From assembly GCA_035570235.1 (NCBI GenBank), contig DATMML010000133.1, positions 1 to 64,000 of the forward strand: a stretch of DNA of 64,000 nt. Reading direction: 5' to 3'. This document shows positions 22,901 through 64,000 of this stretch, piece by piece. The first letter of the stretch is position 1; each line of letters begins with the position of its first letter. Position numbers and translations under genes: made by a program. The notes beneath the pieces were generated by a model. That model worked only from the letters and a program-made list of their open reading frames with translations, did not search any database and was not told the DNA's origin. The stretch is from Vicinamibacteria bacterium. GTDB taxonomy: Bacteria; Acidobacteriota; Vicinamibacteria; Fen-336.

Positions 22901-22908
22901 GCCCTTCC

Positions 22909-23694: not shown

Positions 23695-23700
23695 GGCGTC

Positions 23701-25086: not shown

Positions 25087-25088
25087 CC

Positions 25089-32736: not shown

Positions 32737-32739
32737 GAG

Positions 32740-33879
32740 GTGGGGCTCGTGTTCTGGATCGCAGCCGCGCTCGTTCTCTACGCCTACCTCGGCTACCCCA
32801 TCCTCATTACCGTCATGGCCCGACTATGGCCGGCGCCCGCGGTCTCTAAGCAGGACGTCACCCCCGCCCTCTCCCTCCTGATCATCGTCCACAACGAGGA
32901 GGCCTACCTCGAAGACAAGCTCCGCAATGCGCTTGCCCTCGACTACCCGAAGCACAAGCTCGAGATACTGGTCGTCTCCGATGGCTCCACGGACGGCACG
33001 GAAGCCATTGCCGTCAGCTTTGCGGCGGCGGGCGTTCGGCTCCTGTGCCTCGCCGGACCCCGTGGCAAGGCGGCCTGCCTCAACGAAGCAGTGCCCCGCG
33101 CCAGTGGCGATTTCGTAGTATTCACGGACGCCCGCCAGCCTCTCGCCCCGGATGCCGTGCGTCACCTCGTTGGCTACTTTGCCGACCCCTCGGTGGGCGC
33201 AGTGGGCGGCGAACTCCACCTGCTCACCCCTGCCGGCGTGCCCACCGAGGGGGTGGCGCTCTACTGGAGGTACGAGAAACTCATCCGTCGCGCAGAGAGC
33301 CGGTTCGACTCCACGGTGGGCGTAACGGGGGCCCTCTATGCGTTGCGCAGGGACCTGTTCGTGCCCCTCGATCCCCGAACGATTCTGGATGACGTCGCCC
33401 TGCCCATGGAGGTCGTGCTGGCCGGGCACCGGGTGCTCTTCGCCCCGGAGGCGCGAGCCTGGGACCGCATGGCCGAGAGCCCGGCCCGCGAGTTTCAACG
33501 CAAGGTCCGCACCCTGGCCGGAAACTTTCAGCTTCTCGCCCTGCGTCCCGTGCTTCTACACCCCGTGCGCGACCGTCTCCTCTGGCAGCTTCTCTCCCAC
33601 AAGGTCCTGCGCCTCGCGGTGCCTTGGTGCCTGCTCGTCCTCTTCCTAGCCAGCGCACAGCTCTCCTTTTCGGGCAGTGCCTTCTACCGGCTCGCGTTTG
33701 GCGCCCAAGTGCTCTTCTATCTCCTTGCCGCTGCCGGCGGACGTAAGGCCCGGGCGCGGAGCCCTCTGCGCCTGACCCTCCTTCCCTACACCCTCGCGCT
33801 GCTGAACCTGGCCGCCGCTCGCGGCCTGGTTGGCTTTCTCCGCGGCACGGAGACCGCGGTCTGGAAGAGTTCTTCATGA
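32740..33879 (+). CDS. Membrane glycosyltransferase, family 2
   Basis: The 379-residue protein starts with GTG, with GGGAGG 9 bp upstream. It has an N-terminal helix (about 3-22) and a GT-A domain with LLIIVHNEEAYLEDKL, EILVVSDGSTDGTEAI, a TDAR acidic motif, ILDDVALPMEVVLAG and FQRKVRTLAGNF. Three C-terminal helices follow. This layout matches membrane-bound GT2 enzymes that add sugars to lipid-linked intermediates on the inner face. It ends in an ATGA overlap with the next glycosyltransferase. Confidence 0.93.
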   Translation: MGLVFWIAAALVLYAYLGYPILITVMARLWPAPAVSKQDVTPALSLLIIVHNEEAYLEDKLRNALALDYPKHKLEILVVSDGSTDGTEAIAVSFAAAGVRLLCLAGPRGKAACLNEAVPRASGDFVVFTDARQPLAPDAVRHLVGYFADPSVGAVGGELHLLTPAGVPTEGVALYWRYEKLIRRAESRFDSTVGVTGALYALRRDLFVPLDPRTILDDVALPMEVVLAGHRVLFAPEARAWDRMAESPAREFQRKVRTLAGNFQLLALRPVLLHPVRDRLLWQLLSHKVLRLAVPWCLLVLFLASAQLSFSGSAFYRLAFGAQVLFYLLAAAGGRKARARSPLRLTLLPYTLALLNLAAARGLVGFLRGTETAVWKSSS

Positions 33880-35084
33880 ACACTTCCCGCATCGCCTATA
33901 TCCTCTCCAGGTTCCCTTGCTACGACGAGGTGTTCCTGCTCCGCGAGATCCACGCCGTGGCCGCGCGGCTCGATACCTGGATCTTTACCTTGCGCTCCTC
34001 CCATGAACCCGTAGTCCACGATGAGGCCCGCGCCCTCCTCCCGCGTACGCTCTACGTCGCCTTTCTGGTGTCTCCCCGCATTTTGCGGGCGCACGCGCTT
34101 TTGCTCCGGCGCCGACCTCGGCGCTACCTGGCCGCGCTGGCTCGCCTCGTGGCCGGCAACTGGCGAAGCCCCGAGTTTCTGCTCAAGAACCTCGCCTTCT
34201 TTCCCAAGGCCGTGTGGCTCGCCCAGTGGGCGATCGAAAACGGAGTCACCCACGTGCACGCCGGCTGGGCGACCTACGCAGCCTCGGTCGCCCACGTGGT
34301 CTCCGGGATCTCTGGCGTACCCTTCAGCTTCTCCGGCCACGCCCACGACATCTATCTCAACACCACCCACCTCGCCGAAAAGATCCGGCACGCCGCTTTC
34401 GTCACCACCTGCACCGTCGCCAACGCCGTGCACCTCCGCGGGCTCGCTCCCGAGTGCCCATCCGCACACCTCGCCGTGATCCACCACGGCATCCGAGTCT
34501 CCGACTTCCGCCAAGCGCGGGAGGGGGATGAGCCGCTGCATATCCTTTCCGTAGGCACCCTCAACCCCCACAAGGGATTCGCATACCTGATCGATGCCCT
34601 TGCCCGTCTGGCCGGGGAGGGCCACAAGTTCCACTGTACGATCGTGGGCGGGGGACCCCTGGACGCGACCCTGCGTGCCCAGCTGACGGGCGCCCGCCTA
34701 GACGATCGCGTCACCATGACTGGGCCCCTCAAGCACGCAGACGTGCTCCCCCACTACTCCCGCGCGTCCGTCTTCGTCCTGATGGCCCAACCGGAGTGGC
34801 ACTGGGGGATCCCCAATGTCCTCATCGAGGCCCTGGCCGCCCGTTGCGCCGTGATCACCACCCGCTTTGGATCGGTGGAGGAGCTGGTGAAGGACGGAGA
34901 GACTGGACTGCTCGTGCCACCCCGCGATTCCGCCGCGCTGGCGGAGGCCATCCGCGGCCTCGCCGAAAACCAGGCGCTCCGCCGGCGGCTCGCCGAAGCC
35001 GGTCATCGGGTCGTGGCATCGGAGTTCGATCTCGAGAGGGCCACGGAGGAGTACGTTCGGCGCTTCCAGGGCCTGCCCGCATGA
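33876..35084 (+). CDS. Glycosyltransferase, family 4 (GT-B)
   Basis: The 402-residue cytosolic enzyme has the GT-B fold. The N-terminal domain includes THVHAGWATYAASVAHVVSG and SFSGHAHDIYLNTTHLAEK. The C-terminal donor site has ILSVGTLNPHKGFAYLIDAL, IVGGGPLDATLRAQL and the EX7E-like region ending NVLIEALAARCAVITTR. It is expected to add one sugar of the repeat unit. It is coupled to both neighbours by 4 bp overlaps. Confidence 0.94.
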   Translation: MNTSRIAYILSRFPCYDEVFLLREIHAVAARLDTWIFTLRSSHEPVVHDEARALLPRTLYVAFLVSPRILRAHALLLRRRPRRYLAALARLVAGNWRSPEFLLKNLAFFPKAVWLAQWAIENGVTHVHAGWATYAASVAHVVSGISGVPFSFSGHAHDIYLNTTHLAEKIRHAAFVTTCTVANAVHLRGLAPECPSAHLAVIHHGIRVSDFRQAREGDEPLHILSVGTLNPHKGFAYLIDALARLAGEGHKFHCTIVGGGPLDATLRAQLTGARLDDRVTMTGPLKHADVLPHYSRASVFVLMAQPEWHWGIPNVLIEALAARCAVITTRFGSVEELVKDGETGLLVPPRDSAALAEAIRGLAENQALRRRLAEAGHRVVASEFDLERATEEYVRRFQGLPA

Positions 35085-36241
35085 GCCTGCGTCCCATCCG
35101 GGTCGCCTTTCTGATCGACAAGCTGCACCGGGCGGGGGCCCAGGTCCACCTGGGCCAGCTCGTCTCCCGCCTCGATCGCGGTGCCTTTACACCCGAGGTC
35201 GTCTGCCTCCTCGGCGGCGGCCCGGTGGCGGATGAGCTACGCGAAAATGGGGTGAGGGTGGAGGTTCTGAGTCTCGGTCGACTCTACAGCCCCCGCGGCA
35301 TGCTCGGCCTGCCGCGCCTGGCTCGGCGCTTGCGCGCCTCAAAGCCTGACGTGCTTCACACCTACCTGACGAGCGCGAACATATATGGCGCGCTAGCCGG
35401 ACGGCTCGCCGGAGTGGGCGCGGTGGTGACCTCCCGCCGGGACACCGGCTTCTCACGCAATTGGAGGCTCCGGCTCGTCGAAGAATGCCTCATCAACCCC
35501 TTCGTGGACCGAGTGACCGCGGTCTGCCCCGCCGTCGCCACCGCAACCCGGGGGGAAAGGGGCCTTCGCAACGGGCAAATAGTAACGATACCGAACGGAG
35601 TGGACCTGACGAGGTTCGATCCCGAGCGCCACTCCCGGGCCGAGGCTCGCCACCGATGGGGCCTTCGCCCTGAGCAGGAAGCGGTGGGCGCGATCGGGAA
35701 CCTCCTGCCTGCTAAGGGGCATGCCGACTTGCTCAAGGCCGCGGCGCTCGTGGTGGCGCAGAGGCCCGACACGCATTTCTTCCTGGTGGGCGATGGTCCC
35801 CTGCGACCCGACCTCGAGGCCCTTGCCGACCAACTGGGCATCCGCGGACGCGTGGTCTTCACGGGACCCCTTCAGGATGTGTCCTCCGTCCTGGCCATGC
35901 TGGACGTCGTGGTCCTACCCTCCCACCACGAAGGCCTCTCCAACGTTCTGCTCGAGTCCATGGCCATGGCACGGCCCGTGGTAGCGACCGCCGCGGGTGG
36001 GAATCCCGATGTGGTTCGCGATGGGGTAAACGGTCGCCTGGTCCCGACCCGCGACCCCCAGGCCCTTGCTGCGGCGATCCTCGCTCTCCTCGAGGATTCC
36101 CCCGCGGCGGCATCCCTGGGGCGCGAAGCGCGGCGCTTGGTTGGGCGCGAATTCAGCCTGGAACGCATGGTTGCCGGCTATGAGGTCTTCTACCGCGACC
36201 TCGTGGAGTCGCGGCGGGCCGCCTCCGCGCCCTCCTCGTAG
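35081..36241 (+). CDS. Glycosyltransferase, family 4 (GT-B), last gene of the plus-strand run
   Basis: From ATG 35081 the 386-residue protein shows VAFLIDKLHRAGAQVHLGQL at the N-terminus, VVTSRRDTGFSRNWRL, then NGVDLTRFDP, AIGNLLPAKGHADLLKAA and the donor-binding HHEGLSNVLLESMAMARPVV. Its 3' end overlaps the convergent minus-strand glycosyltransferase by 52 bp. That means the last 17 codons of each gene are read on both strands and no terminator can lie between them. Confidence 0.94.
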   Translation: MSLRPIRVAFLIDKLHRAGAQVHLGQLVSRLDRGAFTPEVVCLLGGGPVADELRENGVRVEVLSLGRLYSPRGMLGLPRLARRLRASKPDVLHTYLTSANIYGALAGRLAGVGAVVTSRRDTGFSRNWRLRLVEECLINPFVDRVTAVCPAVATATRGERGLRNGQIVTIPNGVDLTRFDPERHSRAEARHRWGLRPEQEAVGAIGNLLPAKGHADLLKAAALVVAQRPDTHFFLVGDGPLRPDLEALADQLGIRGRVVFTGPLQDVSSVLAMLDVVVLPSHHEGLSNVLLESMAMARPVVATAAGGNPDVVRDGVNGRLVPTRDPQALAAAILALLEDSPAAASLGREARRLVGREFSLERMVAGYEVFYRDLVESRRAASAPSS

Positions 36242-37367: not shown

Positions 37368-38483
37368 TTGAGAGTGAGGGCCTGGCGCGCGAACCTCGCC
37401 TTGGCCGCCTTCGGCGCGGCCGCGGCCCTCGGCTTGGGCGAGATCGTCGCCCGCGTTGCCCCCCCGCTCGCCCGCAAAGCAGCCGCGCGCCAGGCCGTCC
37501 TGGAGCGCCAATTCGAGGTCCACCCACGGGGGCTTTATCACCTGGACGACCAGTCGTTCTGGACGCTCACCCCCGGCTTTTCTGGGCGCTTTGTGCGCCC
37601 CTACTTTGACATTGAAGTGCGGGCTAACAGCAAGGGGCTGCGGGACCGCGAGTACTCCGCCAAGAGCTCCGGGATCTTCCGGACCCTCGGGCTCGGGGAT
37701 TCTTTTGCCTTCGGGTGGGGTGTTCCCCTGGAGGCCAGCTTCTTCAAACGGCTGGAGCTGCTTCTGAACGGAGCCCCCACCGGAAGGGTCCATGAAGTGG
37801 TGAACGCGGGGATTCCCGGCTATGGCACCTACGAGGCTCTCCGCCTCCTGACCTCCGTGGGCCTCGGCTACGAATCGGACCTCGTGATTCTCGCCTTCTA
37901 CGAGGGCAACGATTACCTGAACAACGCCGATGCCCCCCGAAGACGCGCGATCGTCGACGGCTACCTGAGCGACGCCCCGTCCTGGGAGCGTTCGGGCCTC
38001 ACTCGATTTGCCCTCCGCCACAGCGCGCTTTTTGCGGTCCTGGATGGGCAGTGGTCGGGAGTGGGGGAGAAGCGTGCCTTCCGTGCCTCGGTTGAGAAGA
38101 CCAAGCGCTACCTCCTGGAGATGCGAAGGGTGCTCGCGGTGCGGAACACACCGCTCGTGCTCGTGTTCATCCCCGATCAAGATGCGGAGGCCTACGCTCG
38201 ATCGCCGCTCTTGCGGCTCTCGGACCGGCTCCTGCGGGGCGAGGAATTCTTCGGCCAGCGCGCCGAGCTGGAGGCATTCTGCCGCGATCAGGGGATCGGG
38301 TTCTGCCGCCTGTCCGTGGCATTCGAGGACCGCCCCGAGTCTCCCCGCCTGCGACTTTCGTCCATGGATAGCCATCTCAACGCGCGCGGGCACCGTCTGG
38401 CGGCGGAGGAGATCCACGCCTGGCTCTCCGCTCATCCTTGGGCCCTGGAGGGGAAGATGCCCCCTCCCGGGGGCCCGCCCTAG
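37368..38483 (+). CDS. Membrane-anchored SGNH/GDSL hydrolase
   Basis: The 371-residue protein has an N-terminal membrane segment (about residues 8-25), then an SGNH hydrolase fold. The catalytic serine is in GLGDSFAFGWGV, a block with FYEGNDYLNN carries the GxND signature, and the C-terminal DSHLNARGHRLAA holds the Asp and His. TTG 37368 or GTG 37374 may be the start. Such enzymes often add or remove O-acetyl groups on exported polysaccharides. A deacylase or acetyltransferase acting in the periplasm is the best guess. Confidence 0.85.
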   Translation: MRVRAWRANLALAAFGAAAALGLGEIVARVAPPLARKAAARQAVLERQFEVHPRGLYHLDDQSFWTLTPGFSGRFVRPYFDIEVRANSKGLRDREYSAKSSGIFRTLGLGDSFAFGWGVPLEASFFKRLELLLNGAPTGRVHEVVNAGIPGYGTYEALRLLTSVGLGYESDLVILAFYEGNDYLNNADAPRRRAIVDGYLSDAPSWERSGLTRFALRHSALFAVLDGQWSGVGEKRAFRASVEKTKRYLLEMRRVLAVRNTPLVLVFIPDQDAEAYARSPLLRLSDRLLRGEEFFGQRAELEAFCRDQGIGFCRLSVAFEDRPESPRLRLSSMDSHLNARGHRLAAEEIHAWLSAHPWALEGKMPPPGGPP

Positions 38484-39346
38484 AGCGCCTCCCGAGCGGC
38501 CACGTGGCAAGCCCAGTCGGCGAGAAGGGCCACAAGCCGCTGCTGGGCCGCGGCCGGGGTGAAGACGTGGTCCGTGCGCGTGATCACCTCGAGCTGTGCC
38601 CTCCCCCGCGCCATCGCCTTCCGGACCTCCCGGCGCAGAAGAGTCCGGTAGTTGTGGTAGGCGGGGCTCTCCGCGGAGTACACGAGGCAGAGATCGACCC
38701 CCCGCTCGGTGAGCCTCCGGAGCTGCGCCAGAACCTCCTCCCGGGAAGGAACGACGGCCTCTGTGATCACGGATTGTGCCCCAGGCACGGGATCGGCTTC
38801 CCCACTCGCCCTCGTCCGCTCCCTGAGCATTTCCCAGAGCTCGCTCCGCCCGCGGAGCAGGCGCCACCAGGCGAGGGGGTTCAGGATCTTCCGTCGATAG
38901 GAGTAAAGAAGGAACCCGGGAGCGGGAATGCCATACGGTTCGATGAGGGCCGTACCCACCACCCGCTCGTCGAGTCCAGCTGCGCGGAGGGCATTGTCGG
39001 CGCCGGAGCAGATGCCGATCAGAAGGAATGATTGTGCCCCCCGCGAGCTAGCGAGGAGGTCCATCCCCTGGCGCGTTTCCGCCACTGCCGACTCCACAAA
39101 TGGCGTGGGGTCGCGGCGGGAGCGGCTGTCACCCAGGCCGGAAAAGTCGAAGCGCATCGAGACGAAGCCATGGCGCGCCAGCTCGCGAGCGAGGCGCACG
39201 TGGATGCGGTTGGGACCCACTCGGTGCAAGACGCCGGCGTTCAGGAAGATGACGGCGGGTCGCTCCCGCCCGAGCGCCCCAGAGGGTTCGGTGATCACGG
39301 CTACCAAGGACTTCTCTTCGCCAAAAAGGAGCGCCCCTTCTTTCAC
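38480..39346 (-). CDS. Alpha/beta hydrolase resembling exosortase-associated hydrolase 1
   Basis: The start GTG 39344-39346 overlaps the stop of the upstream hydrolase gene (GTGA), giving 288 residues. The fold shows AVIFLNAGVLHRVGPNRIHV, FVSMRFDFSGLGDS, then the nucleophile elbow LIGICSGADNAL with cysteine in the usual serine position. A late histidine is in RTDHVFTPAA. This pattern resembles the hydrolases found in PEP-CTERM/exosortase loci. Here no exosortase is nearby and the gene lies downstream of a polyketide synthase without thioesterase, so acyl release or acyl transfer is a possible role. That is inference. Confidence 0.82.
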   Translation of the reverse strand: MKEGALLFGEEKSLVAVITEPSGALGRERPAVIFLNAGVLHRVGPNRIHVRLARELARHGFVSMRFDFSGLGDSRSRRDPTPFVESAVAETRQGMDLLASSRGAQSFLLIGICSGADNALRAAGLDERVVGTALIEPYGIPAPGFLLYSYRRKILNPLAWWRLLRGRSELWEMLRERTRASGEADPVPGAQSVITEAVVPSREEVLAQLRRLTERGVDLCLVYSAESPAYHNYRTLLRREVRKAMARGRAQLEVITRTDHVFTPAAAQQRLVALLADWACHVAAREAL

Positions 39347-40110
39347 GTGCAGGCGCCCTCCAGCCAGGTGGTAACGGCACTGAGGAGCTGAGCGGGCACG
39401 AAAGCCCGGCCCATCCCTTCGGCGGGCAGCCATACCGGTGCGGGCGGGAAGCGCTGATGTTCCACTCCCGCCGCTCCTCTCCAGAGAGGCGGCTCGCCTT
39501 CCCCATCCCCACTGTTGACCACCAGCACGCGGCGGGCGGGTCCGTGGGCGAGACCCAGGAGGCCCACTCTCTCGAGGTCAGCCGCCAGTTCATCGCGCAG
39601 GGGAAACCCCAGCGCCTCGTTGGGCTGGGCGATCGCGCCCGGGGCGTGCTCGTGCGTCCAGGCCTCATGCGTTTCTCGTAGCTCGCGCAGGTAGGCGGCA
39701 CCTTGGACCACGGGGTCCCAGAGCACGAGGGCTTCCACACCTCCGAGGCGAGCCGCGCAGAGGCCGGCCAGCGTCCCCCCTAGGCGCAGGCCGATCAAGG
39801 CCACCCTGGAGAGGCCCGTAGACTCGCGAAGCTCCGCCACCGCGGCCACGGTGTCGGCAAGCCACTCCTCCCAGCGAGCCTCTTCCCCTTCCCCCGCTGA
39901 GTCCCCGCAGCCGTGATAGTCGAAGCGCAACGCGGGCAGCCCCGCCTCGGCGAGGCGCTCCCCTAGCTCGCGGAGCGAGCGATGCGCGCGTAGGTACTCC
40001 TGCCCGAAGGGAGCACAGACGACCACACCCGTGCGCCGGCTGGAGCTGCGTGGCGCGTGATAGACCCCGAAGAGGGGCCGAGCGGAGTCTCCGAAATAGA
40101 AGGGTTGCAC
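39343..40110 (-). CDS. Alpha/beta hydrolase-like protein resembling exosortase-associated hydrolase 2
   Basis: The 255-residue product starts with GTG. It has VVVCAPFGQEYLRAHRSLRE, ALRFDYHGCGDSAGEGEEAR and an elbow GLRLGGTLAGLCAARLG, in which the nucleophile position is arginine. No catalytic histidine is evident near the C-terminus (FVPAQLLSAVTTWLEG). That matches my memory of the exosortase hydrolase 2 family, which keeps the fold but not the triad. It is probably a partner of hydrolase 1, to which it is translationally coupled. Confidence 0.8.
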   Translation of the reverse strand: MQPFYFGDSARPLFGVYHAPRSSSRRTGVVVCAPFGQEYLRAHRSLRELGERLAEAGLPALRFDYHGCGDSAGEGEEARWEEWLADTVAAVAELRESTGLSRVALIGLRLGGTLAGLCAARLGGVEALVLWDPVVQGAAYLRELRETHEAWTHEHAPGAIAQPNEALGFPLRDELAADLERVGLLGLAHGPARRVLVVNSGDGEGEPPLWRGAAGVEHQRFPPAPVWLPAEGMGRAFVPAQLLSAVTTWLEGACT

Positions 40111-40266: not shown

Positions 40267-41886
40267 TCAGGGCGAGAACGTGAACACGGCACTCGCGGAA
40301 GCGAGCACATCCCCGGGTTCGAAAAGGTTGTCAAGCAGCGAGCCGGGACGCACCGCGGCCAGGACCCAGGCGTACGTTCCCGGCGTCTCACTGCCCGTCC
40401 AGGTGTAGGTGAGAAATGGCTGGTTGAGCTGGAAGGGTGCAGAAAGGTCGACGCCCGCGGCGACCGGAACCAGGCTCGAAGGCTGGGAGAGCCGCCCCCG
40501 CTTGGGCCCCTGGGGGGTGAGAAGCACCACCTGGTCGCCGTCCGGAAGCACCTCGAAAAGCAGGAGGTCCACCTGCGCGGCCCGCCCGATGTTCGTGATC
40601 GACAGCGACGCGCTGAGGGAGCTCTTCGTCGCGTAGCGGGACTTGTCGGTGGACACCCCGAGGCGGAGCCCAAGGTCGGAGGGCAGTTCCAGGACGTAGG
40701 TGTCCACACTAAACCCGTTGCCCCAGTCGCTTCCGAAGATGGCCCGCGTGCCGCTCGGGCTCGCGACTACATGCGGCTCCGCCCAGTAGTTGTTGCTGAG
40801 GTGGGTGTTGTTGTTGCCAAAGCTCCGGTGGTGGGCAGCGCGGCAGACCCGACCGGTGTTCGTATCCGCTATGACGATCTCGTTGTCGAGGACACCCGCC
40901 CCCGAGGGGTTGCCCACGATCGACAGGAATACCCAGCCTGGGTTTCGGTAGTCGAGGGCGGAGACGTGTGTCCCCGACGGTGGGTACGGATAGCCCGTCG
41001 ACGGCCCGACCACCACTCGGGAGCTACCGTCGGTCAGGTCGAAGCTCACGAGGGAGCCTAACCCGCTCCCCGCTGGTCCGGGATCGAAGGCCACGGTCTC
41101 GTACGTGTCGTGGCCGTTGGTCATCTGCCCCTGGGACGCGTGCTCGTAAGGACTTGCCAGGTCCAACTTCCGCTGCACGTTCAGACCCGGGTCCAGGACC
41201 CAGCCATCCATGACTACCCTCGCTCCGCTGGCCGAGGCCTGCGGAGCATCGAGGGTCGTCGTCCCCATGCCGGTGACGGCGTCGCTTCCGATCTGGTAGA
41301 CAAAGACCGTGGAGTCACACTTGAGACCGATCGTGTTGGAGTCCCAGGAGGTAAACATCGGGTCACTTCCACCACTGATGGGCCCTGAGCAAAAGTTGAA
41401 CGAATGCACCGTTTCCCGCGTGTCACTCGACACGTGGTAGCGCAGGAGGCTCTTGCCGCTCAAGTAGAAAAGCACGTCCGGGTCGGTGGTGTGCCAGTAC
41501 ACCTGCTCGATGTCGTTGGGGGCGATGTCGAGGGAGCGCAGGAAGCGGTAGGAACGGCCATCGTAGAGCTCATGGCCACGACCCACGTGGTAGAGGAGTA
41601 GCCGCGACTCGTCCGCGTTCCACGCCGAGATGGTCGAATAGATGGGCACGATTGCGGCGTCCGAGCCGGGCACGCTGCCCGCGGCCGTGATCCGGCGGAC
41701 CGTCCCTCCGAACTCCGGATCCACAACGGTCTGGCCCACGGCGGGCTGGGTGAGCGAGCTCAGGGGATGCGGGAGCTTATCAAGAACGAGCCCTTGACAC
41801 AGATCGGATGGGGCCGCGGGTGGGGCGGTGAAGGCCAGGCTCGAGAGCCCTAGGGCCAGGTGAAGGGACTGGCGCAAATACTTCAT
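40267..41886 (-). CDS. Secreted beta-propeller-like protein of unknown function
   Basis: ATG 41884-41886 gives 539 residues with a signal peptide (MKYLRQSLHLALGLSSLAF). Upstream codons in frame are not needed. The middle part has repeated beta-rich units such as STISAWNADESRLLLYHVGR and WDSNTIGLKCDSTVFVYQIG. A block THLSNNYWAEPHVVASPSGT reads like a WD40/TolB-like propeller, and a C-terminal Ig-like domain follows (LSASLSITNIGRAAQVDLLL). It is bounded by terminators on both sides, so it is probably its own transcript. No enzymatic motif is seen. It may bind a surface polymer or secreted product. Confidence 0.75.
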   Translation of the reverse strand: MKYLRQSLHLALGLSSLAFTAPPAAPSDLCQGLVLDKLPHPLSSLTQPAVGQTVVDPEFGGTVRRITAAGSVPGSDAAIVPIYSTISAWNADESRLLLYHVGRGHELYDGRSYRFLRSLDIAPNDIEQVYWHTTDPDVLFYLSGKSLLRYHVSSDTRETVHSFNFCSGPISGGSDPMFTSWDSNTIGLKCDSTVFVYQIGSDAVTGMGTTTLDAPQASASGARVVMDGWVLDPGLNVQRKLDLASPYEHASQGQMTNGHDTYETVAFDPGPAGSGLGSLVSFDLTDGSSRVVVGPSTGYPYPPSGTHVSALDYRNPGWVFLSIVGNPSGAGVLDNEIVIADTNTGRVCRAAHHRSFGNNNTHLSNNYWAEPHVVASPSGTRAIFGSDWGNGFSVDTYVLELPSDLGLRLGVSTDKSRYATKSSLSASLSITNIGRAAQVDLLLFEVLPDGDQVVLLTPQGPKRGRLSQPSSLVPVAAGVDLSAPFQLNQPFLTYTWTGSETPGTYAWVLAAVRPGSLLDNLFEPGDVLASASAVFTFSP

Positions 41887-42166
41887 GTTGCCTTGGGTTC
41901 CTATCGAAGGCGCTGGCCGAGACGAGGTCGGCCAGCAGGTCACCGTCGCGGCGCGAGGCGCGACGGCACCTCCACCCGGCTCTGACGACGCCGCTTCGGC
42001 CCGCAGCCTCGCGCCTCAGTGAGGGAAGCCGAGACGGCGCACCGACGGCCCATCCCCTTGGGCGGGAGGGCTCCCGCCGAGGGACGGCCTATTGTCCTTG
42101 GGCTAGGGGGGCCCGGACAGTGAGGGCCCTCACAGTGTGAGGGCCCTCACAGAGGCCGGCAATCGC
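41887..42166. other. Spacer between the PKS operon and the beta-propeller gene, with hairpins
   Basis: These 280 bp hold the tandem palindromes described separately and a second hairpin, GGCGGGAG/CTCCCGCC at 42061-42078. Both follow the last PKS stop in the direction of transcription. The promoter of the propeller gene should lie between about 41890 and 42060, but no clear boxes stand out. Confidence 0.55.
42120..42150 (-). terminator. Tandem 14-bp perfect palindromes, terminator of the PKS operon
   Basis: GTGAGGGCCCTCAC occurs twice, at 42120-42133 and 42137-42150, separated by AGT. Each copy is a perfect palindrome, and the two copies can also pair with each other into one 14 bp stem with a 3-base loop. 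The structure starts 16 bp after the last PKS stop. A second hairpin follows at 42078-42061. Confidence 0.7.
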
Positions 42167-47951: not shown

Positions 47952-50900
47952 TCACAGCTCGATCTCCACGCGCTCGCCCGTAGCCCCGCCAGGGCCCGCC
48001 CCCCCCTTGGCCCATGTGGCGGTCTCGACCTGGGTTGCCAGCTGCGCGATCGTGCGGGCATCGAAGATCACTTCCACCGGCAGTGATACGCCGAACACCT
48101 CCCGCACCCGCGACAGCACCCGGGCCGCGAACAACGAGTGCCCTCCTAGTTCGAAGAAGTCGTCGTGGATGCCCAAAGTCTCCAGTCCCAGCAGCTCCTG
48201 CCAGATGCCGGCCAAGCGCCTCTCGGCCTCGCTCCGCGGGGCGAGGTATTCGCTGCCAAGGGGAGGACGGGGTCGCGCACCGGCCGCCGCGGACAACGCG
48301 GGCGGAGTCGGCAGCGGCTTCCCCCGGCGCCCCAGGCGGGCCTCCAGCCGGCCCGCCGAGACCAGCAGGCGGTCAAGGCGGCGCAGGCGGAGCAGCCGAG
48401 AAAAGCCGCGCAGGGCCTGCTCCGGCATGAGCGCCGGCCCTTCGGTCGCGAGGCCGCGCATCCATGCTGCCTCCACGCGCCCGGGCAAGGCCCACTGGTC
48501 CCAGTTGACGCTCACCCAGGCTGCGTTCCCTTCTCGGCTGGCCGAGGTGGCAAAGGCGTCCAGGAACGCATTCGCGCCGGCGTAGGCCGCGTAGCCCACT
48601 CCGCCCAGCGCGGTAGAGAGCGACGAGATGAGTAGGCAGAAGTCGAGCTCCTCGCCTCGCAGCACCTCTTCGAGGGCCAGAAGACCCCGTACCTTGGGGA
48701 GGAACTGGCGGTCGCAGGCCTCGCGGCCCAACTCCCGGGCGACGCGGAAGCTGTCCGCGTCCAGAACGCCCGCGGCGTGGATGACCCCATGGAGGGCGCC
48801 GAACCGCTCGTGGGCTGCCCGCACAACCGACCCCATGGCGGTGACGTCCGCAACGTCCGCGGCCACGACCAGGACTTCGGCCCCGAGCCCCTCCAGCGCC
48901 TGGACCTTTCTGATCCGCAGCGCGGTCCGCTCCGTGGGCTCGTGGCTCGCGAGCCAGTCCCCCCACTGCGCGCGCGGTGGTAACCCGGTCCGTCCTGTAA
49001 GGACGAGCCTCGCTCGCGCCTGCTGTACGAGCCAGATCCCAAGGACGAACCCTATGTCCCCGAGGCCCCCGGTGATCAGATAGACGCCACCCGCACGTGC
49101 CCTCGAGCCGTTGAGTGCGTCGGCGTCCGCCCCGAGCGGGTCGTCTTCCTCCGGCATCCAGTCATAGTCCTGGACCCAGCGGTGACCTCGGCGATAAGCG
49201 GTCACCGGCTCGGGGCGCGGGAGCCCGAGTTCCGCCACCAGCCGGTCGGCCAGCCCCTCGTGGCCCCCCACGGCGGGCTCCACATCGATCACGGCGCAGG
49301 TAACTTCTGGGTCCTCCTGGGGCAGGACACGGCAGAGTCCCAGCAAGGGCGCCTTCTCGGGGGCCAGCGCCTCCCCACCCACGACCTCATGGAGGCCCGC
49401 CGTGACGACCTTCAGGGCGAGCGGGCCGCCACCGCGCGCGGCGGTTAGGTGGAGCAGGCTAAAGAATCCGAGGTCGCAGGCCCGCCGAAATCGCTCTGGG
49501 CTGGACAATTGGGGATCGGGGGCCTCCACGCTCCACAGGTGGATCACCCCCGCCGGCAGCCGTCGGCGCCGGTGCAGGTCCTCCCACAGTAGAGAATAGT
49601 CTCGCGGCTGGCTGGGGTCGATGGTGTAGCCCCGCTCCGGATCACCCGTGAAACGGGCGCCCGCTGCGATCGTGATCACTTCGGCGGCAAGGGCGTTTAG
49701 CCGCTTAGCGATGCTCGCCCCGAGGCCCTCAGGATCAATGAACAGCAGCCAGAGCTGCCCTGGACCCGCAGGTTCCGCTGCCGCGGGCAGCGCGGTCTTC
49801 CAAATGGGCCGATACAGCTCGGGCTCCATCTTCTCATCCGCGGGCTTCGCCTCCTCCTCGAGGGGATCCACCCAGAAGCGGCTCCGTTCGAATGGGTAGG
49901 TGGGAAGGGGAACCCGCCGGCGGGCCTCCGGCGCATGCACCGCGCGCCAGTCGAGCTCCACGCCCGAGAGCCAGAGGCGACCCAGCACCTCTAGCAGCTG
50001 CGCAGAGCTCAGGGAGGCGCGGATCGCCGGCGCTTCGGAGCCCCGGATCGCATCACGGGTCGTCACCCGACCTCCATCAAGCTCGATCCGGAAGCGACCG
50101 CCCCCAGAAGCCGGCTCCGCGGTGCTCCCCGCCGCCTCGGGATTCGGTCCGCCGGATCGCACGGCCCCCGCAAGCTCCATCACTCCCTGCAAGCAGGCCG
50201 CCACCCGCGCCCCCACGCCTTCTCCCTCGATGGCCTCGAAACGGAGGCCCCAGGACTGGAGAAGGCGCGCGCTCGCGTACTCGAGGGCGAAGGTGGCGAG
50301 GGACCCGATCTGGGGCTCGACAAGTGCTCGCCCAGCCGCCTGTGCTTCGGGAGCAGCCGGGAAGAGCGCATCCCGCATCCGGCGGCCGGTCTCGCCCGCT
50401 GCCTCCACACAGGAGAGCAGCGCATCCCGGAACACGGGCTCCTGCTCGTACAGATCGCGCCCAGTACCCACGGGGGGGGGCGCGCTGGTGGCCAGGCGCA
50501 GAACGATGGGAGGGTTCCGCAGATCGCAGACAACACCCGGCCCATCTGTGCGCAGAAGGGATGCGGCCTCGCCTGCCGTCGCGGCGACGAGGACGCCCCG
50601 GTGGGCGAAGGCCCGGCGGCCGACCTGCAGCGTATAGGCCACGTCGGCGAGGTTCAGCTCGGGTTGCGCCTCCAGGTACGCGGCCAGTCTGTGGCGAGCC
50701 ACCACCAGCGCCTCCTCCGTCCGCGCCGAGAGGAGGAGCAGATGATGCCGGCGCGCGGATGGGGCGCTCGGCATCGCCGGCGCTTCCTCTAGGATCACGT
50801 GGGCGTTGGTGCCGCCGACGCCGAAGGTGTGCACTCCCGCCCGGCGGGCAACGCCGTCACGGGGCCAGGGCCGGAGGGTGGCGTTCACGAAGAACGGGCT

Positions 50901-52103
50901 GTCCGAAAGGTCGATGCCGGGATTGGGGGACTGGAAGTGGAGGCTGGGGGGGATCTCGCCGTGCTGGAAGGCGAGGATCACCTTGATGAGGCTTGTGACC
51001 CCGGACGCCGCGTCCAGATGCCCGACGTTGCCCTTCACCGAGCCAAGGGCGCAGAAGCGGCGGCGATCGGTCCCCGTGCGGAAGGCTCGGGTGAGGGCCG
51101 CGACTTCGGCGGGGTCGCCCAGCCGAGTGCCGGTGCCGTGAGCCTCCACGTAGCCGACCGTCGAGGGGTCGACGCCGGCCGCGGACAGGGCCTCCACCAC
51201 TACCTCGGTCTGCCCGACCACTCCCGGCGCCCCGAAGCTCACCCGCAGCGATCCGTCGTTGTTAACGGCGGAGCCCCGGATGATTGCGTGGACGCTGTCC
51301 CCGTCGGCGAGGGCGTCCTCCAGCCGGCGCAGCACGACCACCCCGAGCCCGTTACCGAAGACGGTGCCTCCCGCCCGGGCGTCGAAGGAGCGGCAGTGAC
51401 CGTCGGGCGAGACGATGCTCCCCTCCTCGTACAGGTACCCGCTCTGCTGCGGGACGTAGATGGTTACGCCCCCCGCCAGGGCCAGGTCGCTCTCGTGGTT
51501 GAGAAGATTCTGGCAGGCCAGGTGCACCGCGACCAGAGAAGTGGAGCAGAAGGTCTGTACCGCGCAGCAGGCCCCCTTTAGGTTCAGCTTGTAGCCCACC
51601 ATGGTGACCAGAGAGTCCTGCACGTTGAAGAGGGTGGCCTGCAGGTCACCGAAGGCCTCCATCCGGGGCCGGTTCCGGTAGAGGTTGTGGACGAGGTAGT
51701 TGCTGAAGCTCGCCCCCGCGAAGAGGCTGATCGGCCCCGGGAAGCGCTCGGGATCGTGGCCGGCATGCTCGAGCGCCGTCCAAGCGCACTCCAGGAAGAG
51801 GCGATGCTGGGGGTCGAGGATCTCGGCCTCCCGTGGGGTGAAGCCGAAGAAGGCGGCGTCGAACATCTCCACGTCGTCCAGGATGGGCCGGACCCGCACG
51901 TAGCGGGGATCCTCGAGATGTTTCCTGTCCTCCCCCCCCTTCAACAGGTCCTCTTCCGAGAAGACCGTGATGGACTCCACTCCCTCACGTAGGTTTCGCC
52001 AGAAGGCTTCGACGTCGGGCGCACCCGGGAACCGCCCCGCCATCCCCACCACCGCGATCTCGGAGCCGTCGTAGGCCGGCTCGGCGGGCGGATGGAAGCT
52101 CAC
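47952..52103 (-). CDS. Type I polyketide synthase, KS-(dead AT)-KR-carrier
   Basis: The 1383-residue protein has an intact KS (13-440) with TFCSTSL (C186), EAHGTGTR (H322) and NVGHLDAASG (H362). The AT region is a relic of about 190 residues (530-720). Flanking parts align with the sister modules (GRDLYEQEPVFRDALL, FALEYASARLLQSWGL), but GHSVGEYVAAHLAGV has become GEGVGARVAACLQGV. The serine is lost, and the HAFHS half of the domain is deleted. KR (1003-1200) keeps TGGLGDIG and YAAYAGAN (Y1174). The carrier (1290-1360) ends with FFELGGHSL (S1323), a form more often seen in peptidyl carriers. The module can condense only if it is loaded by another AT. ATGA overlap couples it to the upstream gene. 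Confidence 0.94.
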   Translation of the reverse strand: MSFHPPAEPAYDGSEIAVVGMAGRFPGAPDVEAFWRNLREGVESITVFSEEDLLKGGEDRKHLEDPRYVRVRPILDDVEMFDAAFFGFTPREAEILDPQHRLFLECAWTALEHAGHDPERFPGPISLFAGASFSNYLVHNLYRNRPRMEAFGDLQATLFNVQDSLVTMVGYKLNLKGACCAVQTFCSTSLVAVHLACQNLLNHESDLALAGGVTIYVPQQSGYLYEEGSIVSPDGHCRSFDARAGGTVFGNGLGVVVLRRLEDALADGDSVHAIIRGSAVNNDGSLRVSFGAPGVVGQTEVVVEALSAAGVDPSTVGYVEAHGTGTRLGDPAEVAALTRAFRTGTDRRRFCALGSVKGNVGHLDAASGVTSLIKVILAFQHGEIPPSLHFQSPNPGIDLSDSPFFVNATLRPWPRDGVARRAGVHTFGVGGTNAHVILEEAPAMPSAPSARRHHLLLLSARTEEALVVARHRLAAYLEAQPELNLADVAYTLQVGRRAFAHRGVLVAATAGEAASLLRTDGPGVVCDLRNPPIVLRLATSAPPPVGTGRDLYEQEPVFRDALLSCVEAAGETGRRMRDALFPAAPEAQAAGRALVEPQIGSLATFALEYASARLLQSWGLRFEAIEGEGVGARVAACLQGVMELAGAVRSGGPNPEAAGSTAEPASGGGRFRIELDGGRVTTRDAIRGSEAPAIRASLSSAQLLEVLGRLWLSGVELDWRAVHAPEARRRVPLPTYPFERSRFWVDPLEEEAKPADEKMEPELYRPIWKTALPAAAEPAGPGQLWLLFIDPEGLGASIAKRLNALAAEVITIAAGARFTGDPERGYTIDPSQPRDYSLLWEDLHRRRRLPAGVIHLWSVEAPDPQLSSPERFRRACDLGFFSLLHLTAARGGGPLALKVVTAGLHEVVGGEALAPEKAPLLGLCRVLPQEDPEVTCAVIDVEPAVGGHEGLADRLVAELGLPRPEPVTAYRRGHRWVQDYDWMPEEDDPLGADADALNGSRARAGGVYLITGGLGDIGFVLGIWLVQQARARLVLTGRTGLPPRAQWGDWLASHEPTERTALRIRKVQALEGLGAEVLVVAADVADVTAMGSVVRAAHERFGALHGVIHAAGVLDADSFRVARELGREACDRQFLPKVRGLLALEEVLRGEELDFCLLISSLSTALGGVGYAAYAGANAFLDAFATSASREGNAAWVSVNWDQWALPGRVEAAWMRGLATEGPALMPEQALRGFSRLLRLRRLDRLLVSAGRLEARLGRRGKPLPTPPALSAAAGARPRPPLGSEYLAPRSEAERRLAGIWQELLGLETLGIHDDFFELGGHSLFAARVLSRVREVFGVSLPVEVIFDARTIAQLATQVETATWAKGGAGPGGATGERVEIEL

Positions 52104-59700: not shown

Positions 59701-61379
59701 ACCGCCTCGCGAAATACCGGCTCCTCCTCGTAGAGACCCCGGCCCATGCCGACGTACTGCGACCCCTGACCTGTGAACATGAACGCGACGGGCGCGTTCT
59801 GCCGCTCCTGCGCCGCCGTCGCCCACCGCGCGGGATCACCAAGGGCCGCCCGGGCGTCCTCGAGATCCCGCCCCACCACCACCCGGCGGTGGTTGAAGAC
59901 GCGCCGGCCAACCTGGAGGGTCCAGGCTGCGTCCGCGAGGTTCGTATCCGGATGCGCGGTCAAGTGGTTGGTCAGCTTGCGCGTGGCCTCGTCGAGCGCG
60001 GTCGCGGTCTTCGCGGAGGCGACCAGGAGCTGCCAAGGGCGGGCAGGGTCCGAGGGAGGCAGGAGGGGCGCCTCCTGAAGGATGGCATGCGCGTTCGTAC
60101 CACCGATCCCGAACGAGCTAATGCCGGCTCTTCGCGGTCCTTCGCTGTTCCACGGCGTGAGCTCGGTGACCACGTAGAACGGGCTGCCCGCGAAGTCGAT
60201 CTCCGGATTCGGAGCCTCGAAGTGCAGACTGGCCGGAATCTGCCGGTGCTCAAGAGCGAGCACGGTCTTGATGAGGCCGGCCACGCCGGCGGCGGCGTCC
60301 AGGTGGCCGATGTTCGTCTTGACGGAGCCGATCGCGCAGTAGCGCTTCCTCCCCGTCCACTTGCGCCAAGCCTTGGTGAGTCCGGCGATCTCGGCAGGAT
60401 CGCCCAGAGCGGTGGCGGTTCCGTGGGCCTCTACGTAGGTGATCGTCTCGGGGTTCACGTCCGCCGCCGACAGTGCCTCCACGATGACCTCGGCCTGCCC
60501 GCTCACGCTGGGAGCAGTAAAACCGACCTTCACTGAGCCGTCGTTGTTGATCGCGGAGCCCAGGATCACGGCACGGACATTGTCGCCATCGCGTACCGCT
60601 TCTTTTAGCCGTTTCAACACCACCGCCCCGAGGCCGTTGCCAAACACCATCCCCTTGCCGCGAGCATCGAAAGTCCGAGTGTGCCCGTCGGGGGAGAGGA
60701 TTCCGCCCTCCATGTACTGATATCCAGTGTTCTGGGAGACAGCGATCGTCACGCCGCCGGCAAGGGCCAGGTCGCTCTCATGGTTGAGCAAGCTCTGACA
60801 GGCCAAGTGCACGGCCAAGAGGGAGGTCGAGCAGAAAGACTGCACCGCATAAGCGGGACCGCGCAGGTTGAGCTTGTAGGCAACCCGGGTGGGTAGGGCA
60901 TCGTTCATGTTCCCGAGGCCGACCTTCAGGTTGCCCATGGCCTGGATGAGCTCACGATCCCACTGCAGGTAGTTCATGAGGTAGCTGCTCTGGCTCACCC
61001 CCGCCGCCAGCCCGATCGAGCCCGCGAAACGCTCGGTGTCGTAGCCGGCGCTCTCCAGTGCCTCCCAGCAGCACTCGAGGAAGAGCCGCTGCTGGGGGTC
61101 CAGGATCTGGGCCTCCCGGGGCGTGTATCCAAAAAACGCAGCGTCGAAGAGGTCGGCTCCCTCGATGCGGGGCCGCATGGGGACGAGGTCGGGCCGCTCC
61201 AGAAAGGACGGGTGCACGTCCACCTCGGCCGCCCATTCCTCGAGGCTGATTGACGAAACCGACTCGACGCCGTTCTTCAGGTTCTCCCAGAGTTCGTCCA
61301 CGCTGTTGGCCCCGGGGAACTTCCCCGCCATTCCGACGACGGCGATCTCGGTGCCCGTCATCTCAGTCGACGACTGCAT
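56727..61379 (-). CDS. Type I polyketide synthase, KS-AT-KR-carrier
   Basis: ATG 61379 is chosen because AGAGGAGGA lies 8 bp upstream; it overlaps the previous gene by 17 bp. The 1550-residue protein has KS (10-432) with SFCSTSL (C183), EAHGTATA (H319) and NIGHLDAAAG (H359). AT (530-830) has GHSVGE (S628) and HAFHS. KR has LITGGLGGIG and a YCGAN catalytic tyrosine motif. The carrier has FFELGGDSL (S1472). A basic tail (RLDLMRRRRQQREIQ) ends the protein. It should add one malonyl unit and reduce it to the beta-hydroxy level. The stop lies 4 bp before the next PKS start. Confidence 0.95.
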   Translation of the reverse strand: MQSSTEMTGTEIAVVGMAGKFPGANSVDELWENLKNGVESVSSISLEEWAAEVDVHPSFLERPDLVPMRPRIEGADLFDAAFFGYTPREAQILDPQQRLFLECCWEALESAGYDTERFAGSIGLAAGVSQSSYLMNYLQWDRELIQAMGNLKVGLGNMNDALPTRVAYKLNLRGPAYAVQSFCSTSLLAVHLACQSLLNHESDLALAGGVTIAVSQNTGYQYMEGGILSPDGHTRTFDARGKGMVFGNGLGAVVLKRLKEAVRDGDNVRAVILGSAINNDGSVKVGFTAPSVSGQAEVIVEALSAADVNPETITYVEAHGTATALGDPAEIAGLTKAWRKWTGRKRYCAIGSVKTNIGHLDAAAGVAGLIKTVLALEHRQIPASLHFEAPNPEIDFAGSPFYVVTELTPWNSEGPRRAGISSFGIGGTNAHAILQEAPLLPPSDPARPWQLLVASAKTATALDEATRKLTNHLTAHPDTNLADAAWTLQVGRRVFNHRRVVVGRDLEDARAALGDPARWATAAQERQNAPVAFMFTGQGSQYVGMGRGLYEEEPVFREAVDAGAELLRSSLGLDLRGVLYPRSGHAEAAAEQLMQTQFTQPALFLVEYALARLWMSWGIQPVAMIGHSVGEYVAAHLAGVFSFEDALALVAERGRLMQSLPRGAMLSVPLGEAALRPHLGAGLDLASVNAPGACAVAGSAEAIDRLERELAERGVPSRRLHTSHAFHSAMMEPILPAFRRRVGEAERRTPSLRFVSNVTGDWITAGEAMDAEYWVRHLRGTVRFGEGVKRLIGEESRPVLLEVGPGNTLVSLARQQGADTGAAAAVASLRHVSETLPDRAFLLGSLGKLWLAGVNLDWVSVHGEERRRRVALPSYPFERQRFWVDRNEKRQLVESIAQGYSLQRREVQDWFYQPSWRRFLPAELLSTPFPPGGSRWLLFLDEEGLGAVMAEQLTRAGQTVMTVRRGRGFATVAPNSFEIDPRERADYVTLLRTLQDGPPQFVVHLWGLTRDDSTSNLDRVEEAQTRGFYSVLFLAQGLAGADFRQPLHMAVVTNNMQEVVGSELTCPEKATVLGPCKVIPQEMTQVSCQSIDVDLPTPGSAQAVRLADRIVAELLTGQPEPVVAYRGPHRWVQSAEPTPLAPPNGVSRLRKGGTYLITGGLGGIGLVFAQHLAENWKARLALTGRSLLPPREEWEVWLEQHGRQDATSQRIGEIRDLEGRGGEVLYLRADVASREDMEGAVVATRKRFGPIQGVIHSAGVAGGGIISLKERDVAARVMAPKVQGTLVLEAALREESLDFFLLCSSTAALLGGLGQVDYCGANAFLDAYAHRARAAGGPPAISVNWDAWREVGMAVNTPVSGALQAARDFSLKVGIAPREGVDALGRILAAGVPQVVVFTMDMRPALLQPQLERKATPPALAGTLEPTSEVRAVEQDAFSGDLERMIAETWERILGRKEIGVDDNFFELGGDSLTALQVIPLLRTRLGKEIPIVTFYEAPTVGLLARALRDRTADEPVVLEEVGQRAETRLDLMRRRRQQREIQPALDPLA

Positions 61380-64000
61380 CAGATGTCCTCCTCTTGGGTC
61401 GGTGGCCTTCTCTCCTCTGTTGCCCCCGCCCCTCGCTGAGCGCCAGGGCGTGGTCCGGTCCCTGACGCGACCGGATGAGGTGGCCGAGGGCTCGCACGGT
61501 CGGGGCCTCGAAGAGCGTGGCCACGGAGAGTTCGACCGGGAACTCCTTGCGGACACGACCCATCAGGTGGACGGCAAGGAGGGACGAGCCCCCCAGCTCG
61601 AAGAAGTTGTCATCCGCCCCCACGCGGTCGATCCCGAGCATCTGGGCCCAGAGGGTGGCCAGCTGGCGGTCCACGGGGTCCTCGGGGGTGACGTAGACGG
61701 CGCTCATCTCGGGCCGCGCGTGCCGCTCGGCCTCCGGAGACGAGGAGGCTGCGCCGGCCCCTCCCGGGACCTCCCGCCGCGTCCACTCCGCGAGACGCGT
61801 GCCAAGGGGTGTGGTGGACACGACGATCTGAGGCGGCGAGCCCAGGGTCAGGAGCCGCGCGAAGGCTTCGCCACCCTCCTCCGCGGAGATCGCGGTCGAT
61901 GCGAGTCGACCACCCCCCTCGACGATCCCGGAGCCGAGCTGCCAGCCGTCCCAGCAGACACTGACCCAGAAGCGCTTCCCCTTCTGGTGCTGGCGGCGAG
62001 CGAAGGCGTCGAGGGCGTGGTTGCCGGCAGCGTAGGCCCCGAGACCCAGGCCTCCCAATACGGTGGAGAGCGATGAGGTGAACAGGACGAAGTCCAGGGA
62101 CTCGTCGCCCAGCAGCCTTTCCAGCACCTCCGCTCCTCCCAGCTTCGGCCGGAGCTGCCGCTCACAGTCCGCCCGCTCGGTTTCAGCAAGGGGGCGGAAA
62201 GCACCCGGACCCAGCTCCGCCGCCGCGTGGATCACGCCGTGGAGGCGCCCGAACCTCTCTCGGGCCAGCCCCAAAACGGCCCGCATCTGGCCGAGGTCAG
62301 CGGCGTCCGCGCTTAAGGCGAGGACCTCGGCTCCCAGGGCCTCCAAATCCTGGACGGCCCGAATCTTCCGGGCTTCCTCGTCGCCGGGGGGGGCAGCGGC
62401 GAGACGCTGCTCCCACTGCGCGCGCTCGGGCAGGCCGGAGCGGCTGGTCAGGACCAGGCGGGCCTTTGCCGTCCGCGCAAGATGGGCGGCGAGGGCGAGG
62501 CCGACCTTCCCTAGCCCGCCCGTCACGAGGTAGACGCCCCGCGGGCGCAGGGGTGCCGCTGTGGGCGCGGTCGCCGCCGGCTCCACGGGTTCGAAGGACA
62601 GGACCCACCGGTGCCGGCCCCGGTACGCGACCGTCGGCTCCGGGGAGGACGAGGCCCCTTCCGCGAGGACCACTTCCGCGAGCACCTCCCGGGACGGCTC
62701 GTCCGGTCCCCCCCTTGGCAGGTCGAGGGTTCGACAGGCGAGGAGAGGGTACTCCTGGGGGATTACCCGGCAGGGGCCGAGCACCGTTGCCGCCAGGGGC
62801 GACAGAGGCTCATTACCGAGCACGTCCTGGACCCCTGCCGTCACGACCAGCAGGCTCGTCTCCCGGTCCTGCCTGCGACCGAGTGCCTGTCCCAGGTGGA
62901 GCACGCTGAGGAGGCCACGCTCCAAGGGGTCCCCTGCGCCCCCTTGCGCACTCCACAGGTGGACAAAGCGGTCGGGCACGCCCCCCTTCGCCGCCAGGTC
63001 GTCCAGCAATTGCTCATACGCTCCGCGCTGCCCGGGCGGGAGGGTGCACTCCCCGGCCTCGCCCCAAGCAAAGCGTGGTCCCGGCCGCACCACCGTCACC
63101 GAGGCGCCCCGGGCGCGCAGGCCTGCCACCAGAGCCGAGCCCAGCGCGCCCTCCTCGGGGAGGAGCACGCACCAGCGCCCTTCGACCGTCTCCCTGTCGA
63201 GGGGCAGGGCCTCCGTTCGCTTCCAGGACGGCGTGTAGAGCCAGCGCTCCACGGGCAACTTCGAAGCCCCCCCCGGGCGCCCCATCTCCGGCTGCGCGGG
63301 GCCCGGGCTCGTTGCATCGACCCAATATCGCTCGCGGTCGAACGCGTATGTTGGGAGCACAACCCGCCGTTGCCCACGGTAGTGGTCACGCGACGACCAA
63401 TCGACCGCGATGCCCGCCGTCCACAAGCGGGCCGCGGTCTGAAGGAAGAAGACTTCGTCTGCCTCCGGCTGGCGGGGATGCGGGAGAGAGGCCAGCGCGA
63501 TCACCGCGGAGTGCCTCCGCTTTGCCAGAGCGACCAGGGTATGACCCGGGCCCACCTCGAGGAGGGTTCGCTTCGGGTCGGCCAGCAGGGTGGCGAGCCC
63601 CTCGGAGAAGCGCACCGTGTCCCGCAGGTGCCCCGCCCAATAAGCGGAGTCGGTGGCCTGCTCCGCAGTGATCCAGGTCCCCGTCCGGTTGGACACGAAG
63701 GGAATCCGAGGCTCCTTCATACGTGCCCTCGCCACGCGGGCCGCAAAGGCGTCGAGGGCCGGCTCCATCAGCCGGGAGTGAAACGCATGCGAGGTCAGCA
63801 CGCGTCCATGGGCCACGTCGAGCTCCTTCAGGCGGGCCTCCAGCCGCTCGATGTCTTCGAACGCCCCTCCGACGACGCAGGCATCCGGCCCATTCACCAC
63901 GCAGAGGTCCAGTCGACCGTCGAGAAGGGGCAGCACCGTCTCCGCGGCGAGGGCCACCGCGGTCATAGCCCCCGGCGGGCAATCCTCCATGAGACGACCG
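61363..64000 (-). CDS. Type I polyketide synthase, AT-KR-carrier, 5' part beyond the window
   Basis: The frame is open to the window end, so the protein is partial; the visible 878 codons begin inside an AT. GRLMEDCPPGAM corresponds to the segment after the AT active site in the sister modules, so KS and the GHSxG serine lie outside. HAFHS is present (malonyl type). KR has VTGGLGKVG and GAYAAGN. The carrier has FFELGGSSL, and a basic tail with RGQQRREGHRPKRR follows. An ATG at 63990 exists but sits in the middle of the AT and is not the start. As the most upstream module visible it shows that the assembly line extends further to the right. Confidence 0.93.
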   Translation of the reverse strand, partial: GRLMEDCPPGAMTAVALAAETVLPLLDGRLDLCVVNGPDACVVGGAFEDIERLEARLKELDVAHGRVLTSHAFHSRLMEPALDAFAARVARARMKEPRIPFVSNRTGTWITAEQATDSAYWAGHLRDTVRFSEGLATLLADPKRTLLEVGPGHTLVALAKRRHSAVIALASLPHPRQPEADEVFFLQTAARLWTAGIAVDWSSRDHYRGQRRVVLPTYAFDRERYWVDATSPGPAQPEMGRPGGASKLPVERWLYTPSWKRTEALPLDRETVEGRWCVLLPEEGALGSALVAGLRARGASVTVVRPGPRFAWGEAGECTLPPGQRGAYEQLLDDLAAKGGVPDRFVHLWSAQGGAGDPLERGLLSVLHLGQALGRRQDRETSLLVVTAGVQDVLGNEPLSPLAATVLGPCRVIPQEYPLLACRTLDLPRGGPDEPSREVLAEVVLAEGASSSPEPTVAYRGRHRWVLSFEPVEPAATAPTAAPLRPRGVYLVTGGLGKVGLALAAHLARTAKARLVLTSRSGLPERAQWEQRLAAAPPGDEEARKIRAVQDLEALGAEVLALSADAADLGQMRAVLGLARERFGRLHGVIHAAAELGPGAFRPLAETERADCERQLRPKLGGAEVLERLLGDESLDFVLFTSSLSTVLGGLGLGAYAAGNHALDAFARRQHQKGKRFWVSVCWDGWQLGSGIVEGGGRLASTAISAEEGGEAFARLLTLGSPPQIVVSTTPLGTRLAEWTRREVPGGAGAASSSPEAERHARPEMSAVYVTPEDPVDRQLATLWAQMLGIDRVGADDNFFELGGSSLLAVHLMGRVRKEFPVELSVATLFEAPTVRALGHLIRSRQGPDHALALSEGRGQQRREGHRPKRRTSDAVVD

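Follow-up and report, generated by a model that had tools for sequence, protein, structure and literature searches.

A stable module without an acyltransferase (AT) in a cis-AT polyketide synthase (PKS) line is of a known kind, of which single cases have been described, and the staged and repeated record reported here is unusually clear. In irumamycin biosynthesis, the nucleophilic Ser of AT12 is changed to Gly and the neighboring AT11 has been proposed as the loader, since the product contains the corresponding unit (PMC11672594). The module studied here, P0001, resembles irumamycin module 12, likewise part of a cis-AT line, in having this Ser-to-Gly change, but the available part of that report describes AT12 with the Ser change alone, whereas the AT of P0001 is also half deleted and conserved in this state in three genera. 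In haliamide biosynthesis, modules 2 and 5 are without an AT and malonate is still incorporated; this line is likewise a PKS-NRPS hybrid that is mostly cis-AT with some AT-lacking modules, but it had a free-standing AT as candidate loader, whereas the genome carrying P0001 has none but FabD (PMC6274090). An AT-null DEBS module has been rescued by a FabD-type MCAT (PMC6164871), and mixed cis/trans lines account for 473 of 8799 catalogued lines (PMC10394414). Literature searches for wording on modules loaded in trans and for AT remnants gave no matches.

Within the window (the whole 64,000-nucleotide stretch of Vicinamibacteria DNA that was analyzed), P0001 is a PKS protein of 1383 aa encoded at 47952..52103 with the layout KS - AT relic - psiKR - KR - carrier. 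It lies on the minus strand, as do its domains and the neighboring modules described below; a plus-strand reading of the ORF at 47952-52103 was rejected as the wrong strand. By domain and residue checks, the ketosynthase (KS; 50754..52061) retains its Cys-His-Lys-His residues, and the catalytic Ser-Tyr-Asn of the ketoreductase (KR; 48399..49094) and the GGHSL motif of the carrier (48018..48236) are also intact. The KS-AT linker or adaptor subdomain is retained at 50553..50753 (Pfam CurL-like_PKS_C / RhiE-like_linker; pLDDT mostly >90), and the post-AT linker (LPTYPFERSRFW), supported by alignment, AlphaFold and structure comparison, is retained at 49848..50012. P0001 thus carries KS residues that appear competent for condensation (Cys-His-His, with the Lys also kept) and both AT-flanking linkers without a full AT, as would be expected of an AT-less extending module. 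The loss of a catalytic KS His, as would be expected of a non-elongating (KS0-type) module, was not seen, both His residues being kept in P0001, P0008 and P0020.

Between the two linkers, the AT relic spans aa 518-697 (50013-50552, or down to 49848 when the post-AT linker is included), close to the 49930-50530 assigned to it in an earlier note on this DNA. In the alignment, P0001 aa 529-652 correspond to the N-terminal half of the AT hydrolase, and what is left of this half of the hydrolase core was delimited as a folded remnant at 50148..50519 by alignment, motif check, AlphaFold and structure comparison. Inside this remnant, the GQG motif is gone and the GHS nucleophile motif reads GEG within a dead elbow, GEGVG (50211-50225); the alignment places GEGVGARVAACLQGV (aa 627-641; 50181-50225) opposite GHSVGEYVAAHLAGV of the neighboring modules, the same replacement that the earlier note had described. 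From the conserved RGRLM to past HAFHS, the sequence is deleted or unalignable until the post-AT linker restarts at aa 698; where the alignment would place the ferredoxin-like subdomain along with the C-terminal AT half (HAFHS region), P0001 has a probably disordered stretch (50013..50147; pLDDT 37-57). The five other PKS ATs encoded in the genome all have HAFHS. At an E cut-off of 0.001, Pfam Acyl_transf_1 (PF00698) had no match in P0001, against scores of 182-192 bits for P0002-P0004, and a locally built AT model covers just positions 10-114 of 322. As read from these residues, the comparison demonstrates an AT that is catalytically dead and half deleted in an otherwise intact module, and the proposal that this module must be loaded in trans or skipped follows from the sequence of the dead AT.

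The earlier note had suggested structure prediction and a comparison of related genomes as checks, and both agree with the loss. The AlphaFold model of P0001 (mean pLDDT 89, 33 sequences) is confident for the KS, the adaptor, the half-hydrolase and the post-AT linker and of low confidence at aa 653-696, the site of the lost AT half, which is probably disordered; the predicted fold contains neither a complete AT nor an alternative nucleophile, whereas a model of the sister module P0003 from the same sequences has a full KS-AT. The best PDB match of the relic model was OzmQ KS1, followed by OzmN KS2, and those of the P0003 model were the ClbI and CurL KS-AT didomains. The closest solved folds to the relic are therefore the 'AT-less' ketosynthases of oxazolomycin biosynthesis (PDB 4oqj, 4wky), which the post-AT linker also resembles. 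The sequence alignment of OzmQ KS1 with P0001 reaches into the AT remnant, to residue 622, just ahead of the elbow, while OzmN KS2 passes from the KS-AT linker almost at once to the post-AT linker. The oxazolomycin line differs in having a discrete AT, named OzmC (PMC6164871), as none was found for the P0001 line.

Relatives of P0001 were compared across 14 genomes of the family, in which G000 is the genome of the window. G009, which belongs to a different genus, has this relic too, in frame, with 62% identity over aa 32-1119 and GEGVGARVAACL identical; the relic region itself is 46% identical between G000 and G009, and the G009 carrier of the relic module is intact and located on another contig. 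In G008, of a third genus, an orthologue lies in the same gene order (P0003-P0001-P0002 is common to G000 and G008), and its AT is a short unrecognizable stretch between both linkers, a stage resembled by OzmN KS2; the exact length of this stretch is uncertain owing to a 10-N scaffold gap and a frame change, but the flanks align and little can be missing. The KSs of the relic modules in the three genera form one clade adjoining P0004 in the KS tree (support 99, a starred branch). All orthologues found lack an intact AT, and a scan of named genomes was also without a close AT-less orthologue; L069 and L073, considered as AT-less from their short match spans, were rejected since their ATs are intact. 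The simplest reading of these sequences is one shared loss of the AT that is old and stable in three genera, while two separate losses may be conceivable, losses being frequent.

Substitution rates between G000 and G009 differ strongly along the module. The relic has a dN of 0.54 versus 0.165, 0.185 and 0.190 in the intact sister ATs (~3x), while dN is 0.15 for the KS (dS 0.66), 0.26 for the KR (dS 1.22) and 0.22 for the post-AT linker (dS 0.78) of the relic module. The carrier was compared in the G000-G008 pair (dN 0.31, dS 1.15), and the P0001 KS has a dN/dS of about 0.23 against P0008; all of these ratios are rough as dS is high in places. The relic is relaxed, yet not clearly neutral, and the remaining module is under purifying selection. 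A non-neutral relic could have a non-catalytic role beyond spacing. The idea that a cis-to-trans transition has been caught in progress fits these results poorly, since the three genera share the loss and purifying selection has since maintained the module over a dS of about 0.7-1.2.

The assembly line runs from NRPS modules through P0011 (KS-AT-KR-T), P0004 and P0003 (both with this same layout) to P0001 and P0002 (KS-AT-cMT-KR-ACP). The upstream P0003 (52100..56722) and the downstream P0002 (42167..47866) each have an intact malonyl-type AT and are candidate trans loaders; P0004 (56727..61556) also has an intact malonyl-type AT, and the C-terminal part of P0011 with an intact AT lies at 61363..64000, the rest being on the contig beyond the window. 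The start of P0001 and the stop of P0003 share an overlap of 4 nt, which suggests coupled synthesis of the two proteins. The line continues past the window on contig C133 and probably onto contig C24; the ends of C24 and C133 (L014:1-1641 and L013:12520-13287) both break within an NRPS adenylation domain and probably belong to one line. An intact AT is present in 5 of the 6 PKS modules on C24 and C133, so this is a line of mixed module types in a genome without a dedicated trans-AT, and not one in which most modules are AT-less, as in a trans-AT line. No DH, ER or thioesterase was recognized in the line (window and L013/L014). A weak alpha/beta hydrolase at 38480-39433 (minus strand) could be a candidate for product release. 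The minus-strand frame at 40267-41943 encodes a protein of 558 aa that may have a signal sequence and gave no Pfam match; its apparent counterpart in G009, also of 558 aa (L054:15256-16932), lies directly after the relic module, P0002 being absent there. Elsewhere in the window (20990-36241, plus strand) is an exopolysaccharide-type cluster with Wzz/GNVR, a sugar transferase, an O-antigen ligase, a MurJ-like flippase, glycosyltransferases, deacetylases and GH123.

To identify ATs that could charge P0001, PF00698 was searched against the 99.6% complete G000, giving the five cis ATs and one AT on contig C15, with a similar result for G008. The C15 AT lies outside the cluster, adjoins KS- and KR-like frames and is read here as FabD. 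No dedicated free-standing AT was found besides FabD by this search in G000 or G008, which also speaks against a finished cis-to-trans conversion with an AT of its own. All five cis ATs of the genome contain SHAFHS, a motif of malonyl-type ATs, and therefore any of them would give P0001 the same unit. As no other AT was found, all cis ATs are malonyl-type and the genes of P0003 and P0001 overlap, the economical reading is that a sister AT or FabD loads the module in trans, and P0001 most likely extends the chain in this manner, as judged from sequence and from the analogous systems above. The carrier would be charged in trans by the resident malonyl-CoA-specific ATs, most likely that of the neighboring P0003 or P0002 and otherwise FabD; P0001 would then add one malonyl unit to the chain and reduce that unit. 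The half-hydrolase and the two linkers would persist as a structural spacer that positions the KS and the downstream domains. Overall, we give a probability of roughly 65% to this explanation, namely an old and stable AT loss in a cis-AT PKS/NRPS line, with a trans-loaded extending module and the relic as spacer.

A less likely reading, but one to be taken seriously, is that the module does not extend, the KS handing the chain via its own carrier to P0002 without condensation or the module being skipped. This would agree with P0001 having no AT of its own and with the variable line end, a P0006-like gene appearing directly after the relic module in G009. We disfavor it because the KS retains its condensing residues, including both His residues of decarboxylative condensation, and the KR its catalytic residues; the KR is also under purifying selection. 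Of the earlier proposal of a recurrent non-extending module, the recurrence is supported (see below), and the non-extending part is disfavored. We consider it improbable that the module or the entire cluster is decaying with no product made: in P0021, a second damaged module in G008, the AT is dead and the KR degraded, but frames are open throughout, the dN/dS of the KS is low and the gene order is kept between G000 and G008. Loading by a dedicated but unrecognized free-standing AT elsewhere in the genome is more doubtful still, even with the precedent of haliamide, which was explained by such an enzyme (PMC6274090), and of G050, which has two AT-less modules and a free 383-aa AT (GYSLGE, CAFHS) in the same cluster region, because the PF00698 search of G000 and G008 gave just cis ATs and FabD. 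An assembly error or frameshift artefact is effectively excluded because the same relic is found in the independent G009, of a second genus, and almost nothing of the AT is left in G008; the window is free of N and the P0001 frame is open. That the AT works with a different nucleophile, for which the retained folded half-hydrolase might speak, is equally implausible, as the GQG and elbow Ser are gone, the catalytic His is missing together with the C-terminal half, and the predicted fold is incomplete.

PKS regions of class members were surveyed by scoring each KS module that had a recognizable post-AT linker. A working AT is missing in 15 of the 78 KS modules surveyed, a non-random sample, since resemblance to the relic or to P0001 guided the choice of regions. 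The AT-dead/AT-live label changes 11 times on the KS tree, with at least 8 changes forced by starred branches. In G008, P0021 (L037:8395-12018), the orthologue of P0011, has an independently dead AT (GQGIG) with KS and carrier kept; further cases are two modules in G050, one in G062, the pairs in G114/G117 and one in G031, G181 has a full-length AT with a Gly elbow, and the f3 genomes have a separate family of dead-AT modules. The nucleophile is Gly in all six of the nearest lineages with an elbow left (GEGVG, GQGIG, GEGVG, GEGTG, GHGAG and GHGIG), and in the more distant family the residue is mostly Gly, in one case Ala and in two Asp. Nucleophile codons of intact ATs are AGC (108), AGT (14) and TCG (4). 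From single-base changes of AGC with a transition bias of 3, Gly would be expected in ~1/4 of cases, and six of six would have a probability of ~0.0002, a rough estimate in which later substitutions are ignored. Plausibly, Gly is favored at the strained elbow, where it would keep the fold while activity is dropped.

Tentatively, these cases could reflect a class-wide process in which ATs are repeatedly killed by Ser-to-Gly change and trimmed to a folded half-domain and linkers, with sister ATs loading the orphan module, a possibility to which we give less than even odds. If true, stable AT sharing without a dedicated trans-AT would offer a natural path by which cis-AT lines turn into trans-AT lines, with its stages visible. 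This bears on the questions of how trans-AT lines originate from cis-AT lines and whether the AT of one module can serve another. In genomes that have no dedicated trans-AT, these orthologous and independent losses range from a full-length dead AT over half-domains to linkers alone; they make AT sharing between modules directly testable, and they mark where evolution tolerates AT excision, which is useful for PKS engineering.

Two other module types were observed among the regions examined. In large PKS proteins from Gammaproteobacteria, Rhodothermales and f3 genomes (L083, L079, L081, L082, L084, L086, L129, L135 and L141), the AT that comes after a second KS is truncated or cut off and has a dead elbow, in most cases GYGVG/GxGAG. 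In G050, a KS module (C32:50260-52515; L146:8184-14690) has two complete tandem ATs near the free-standing 383-aa AT.
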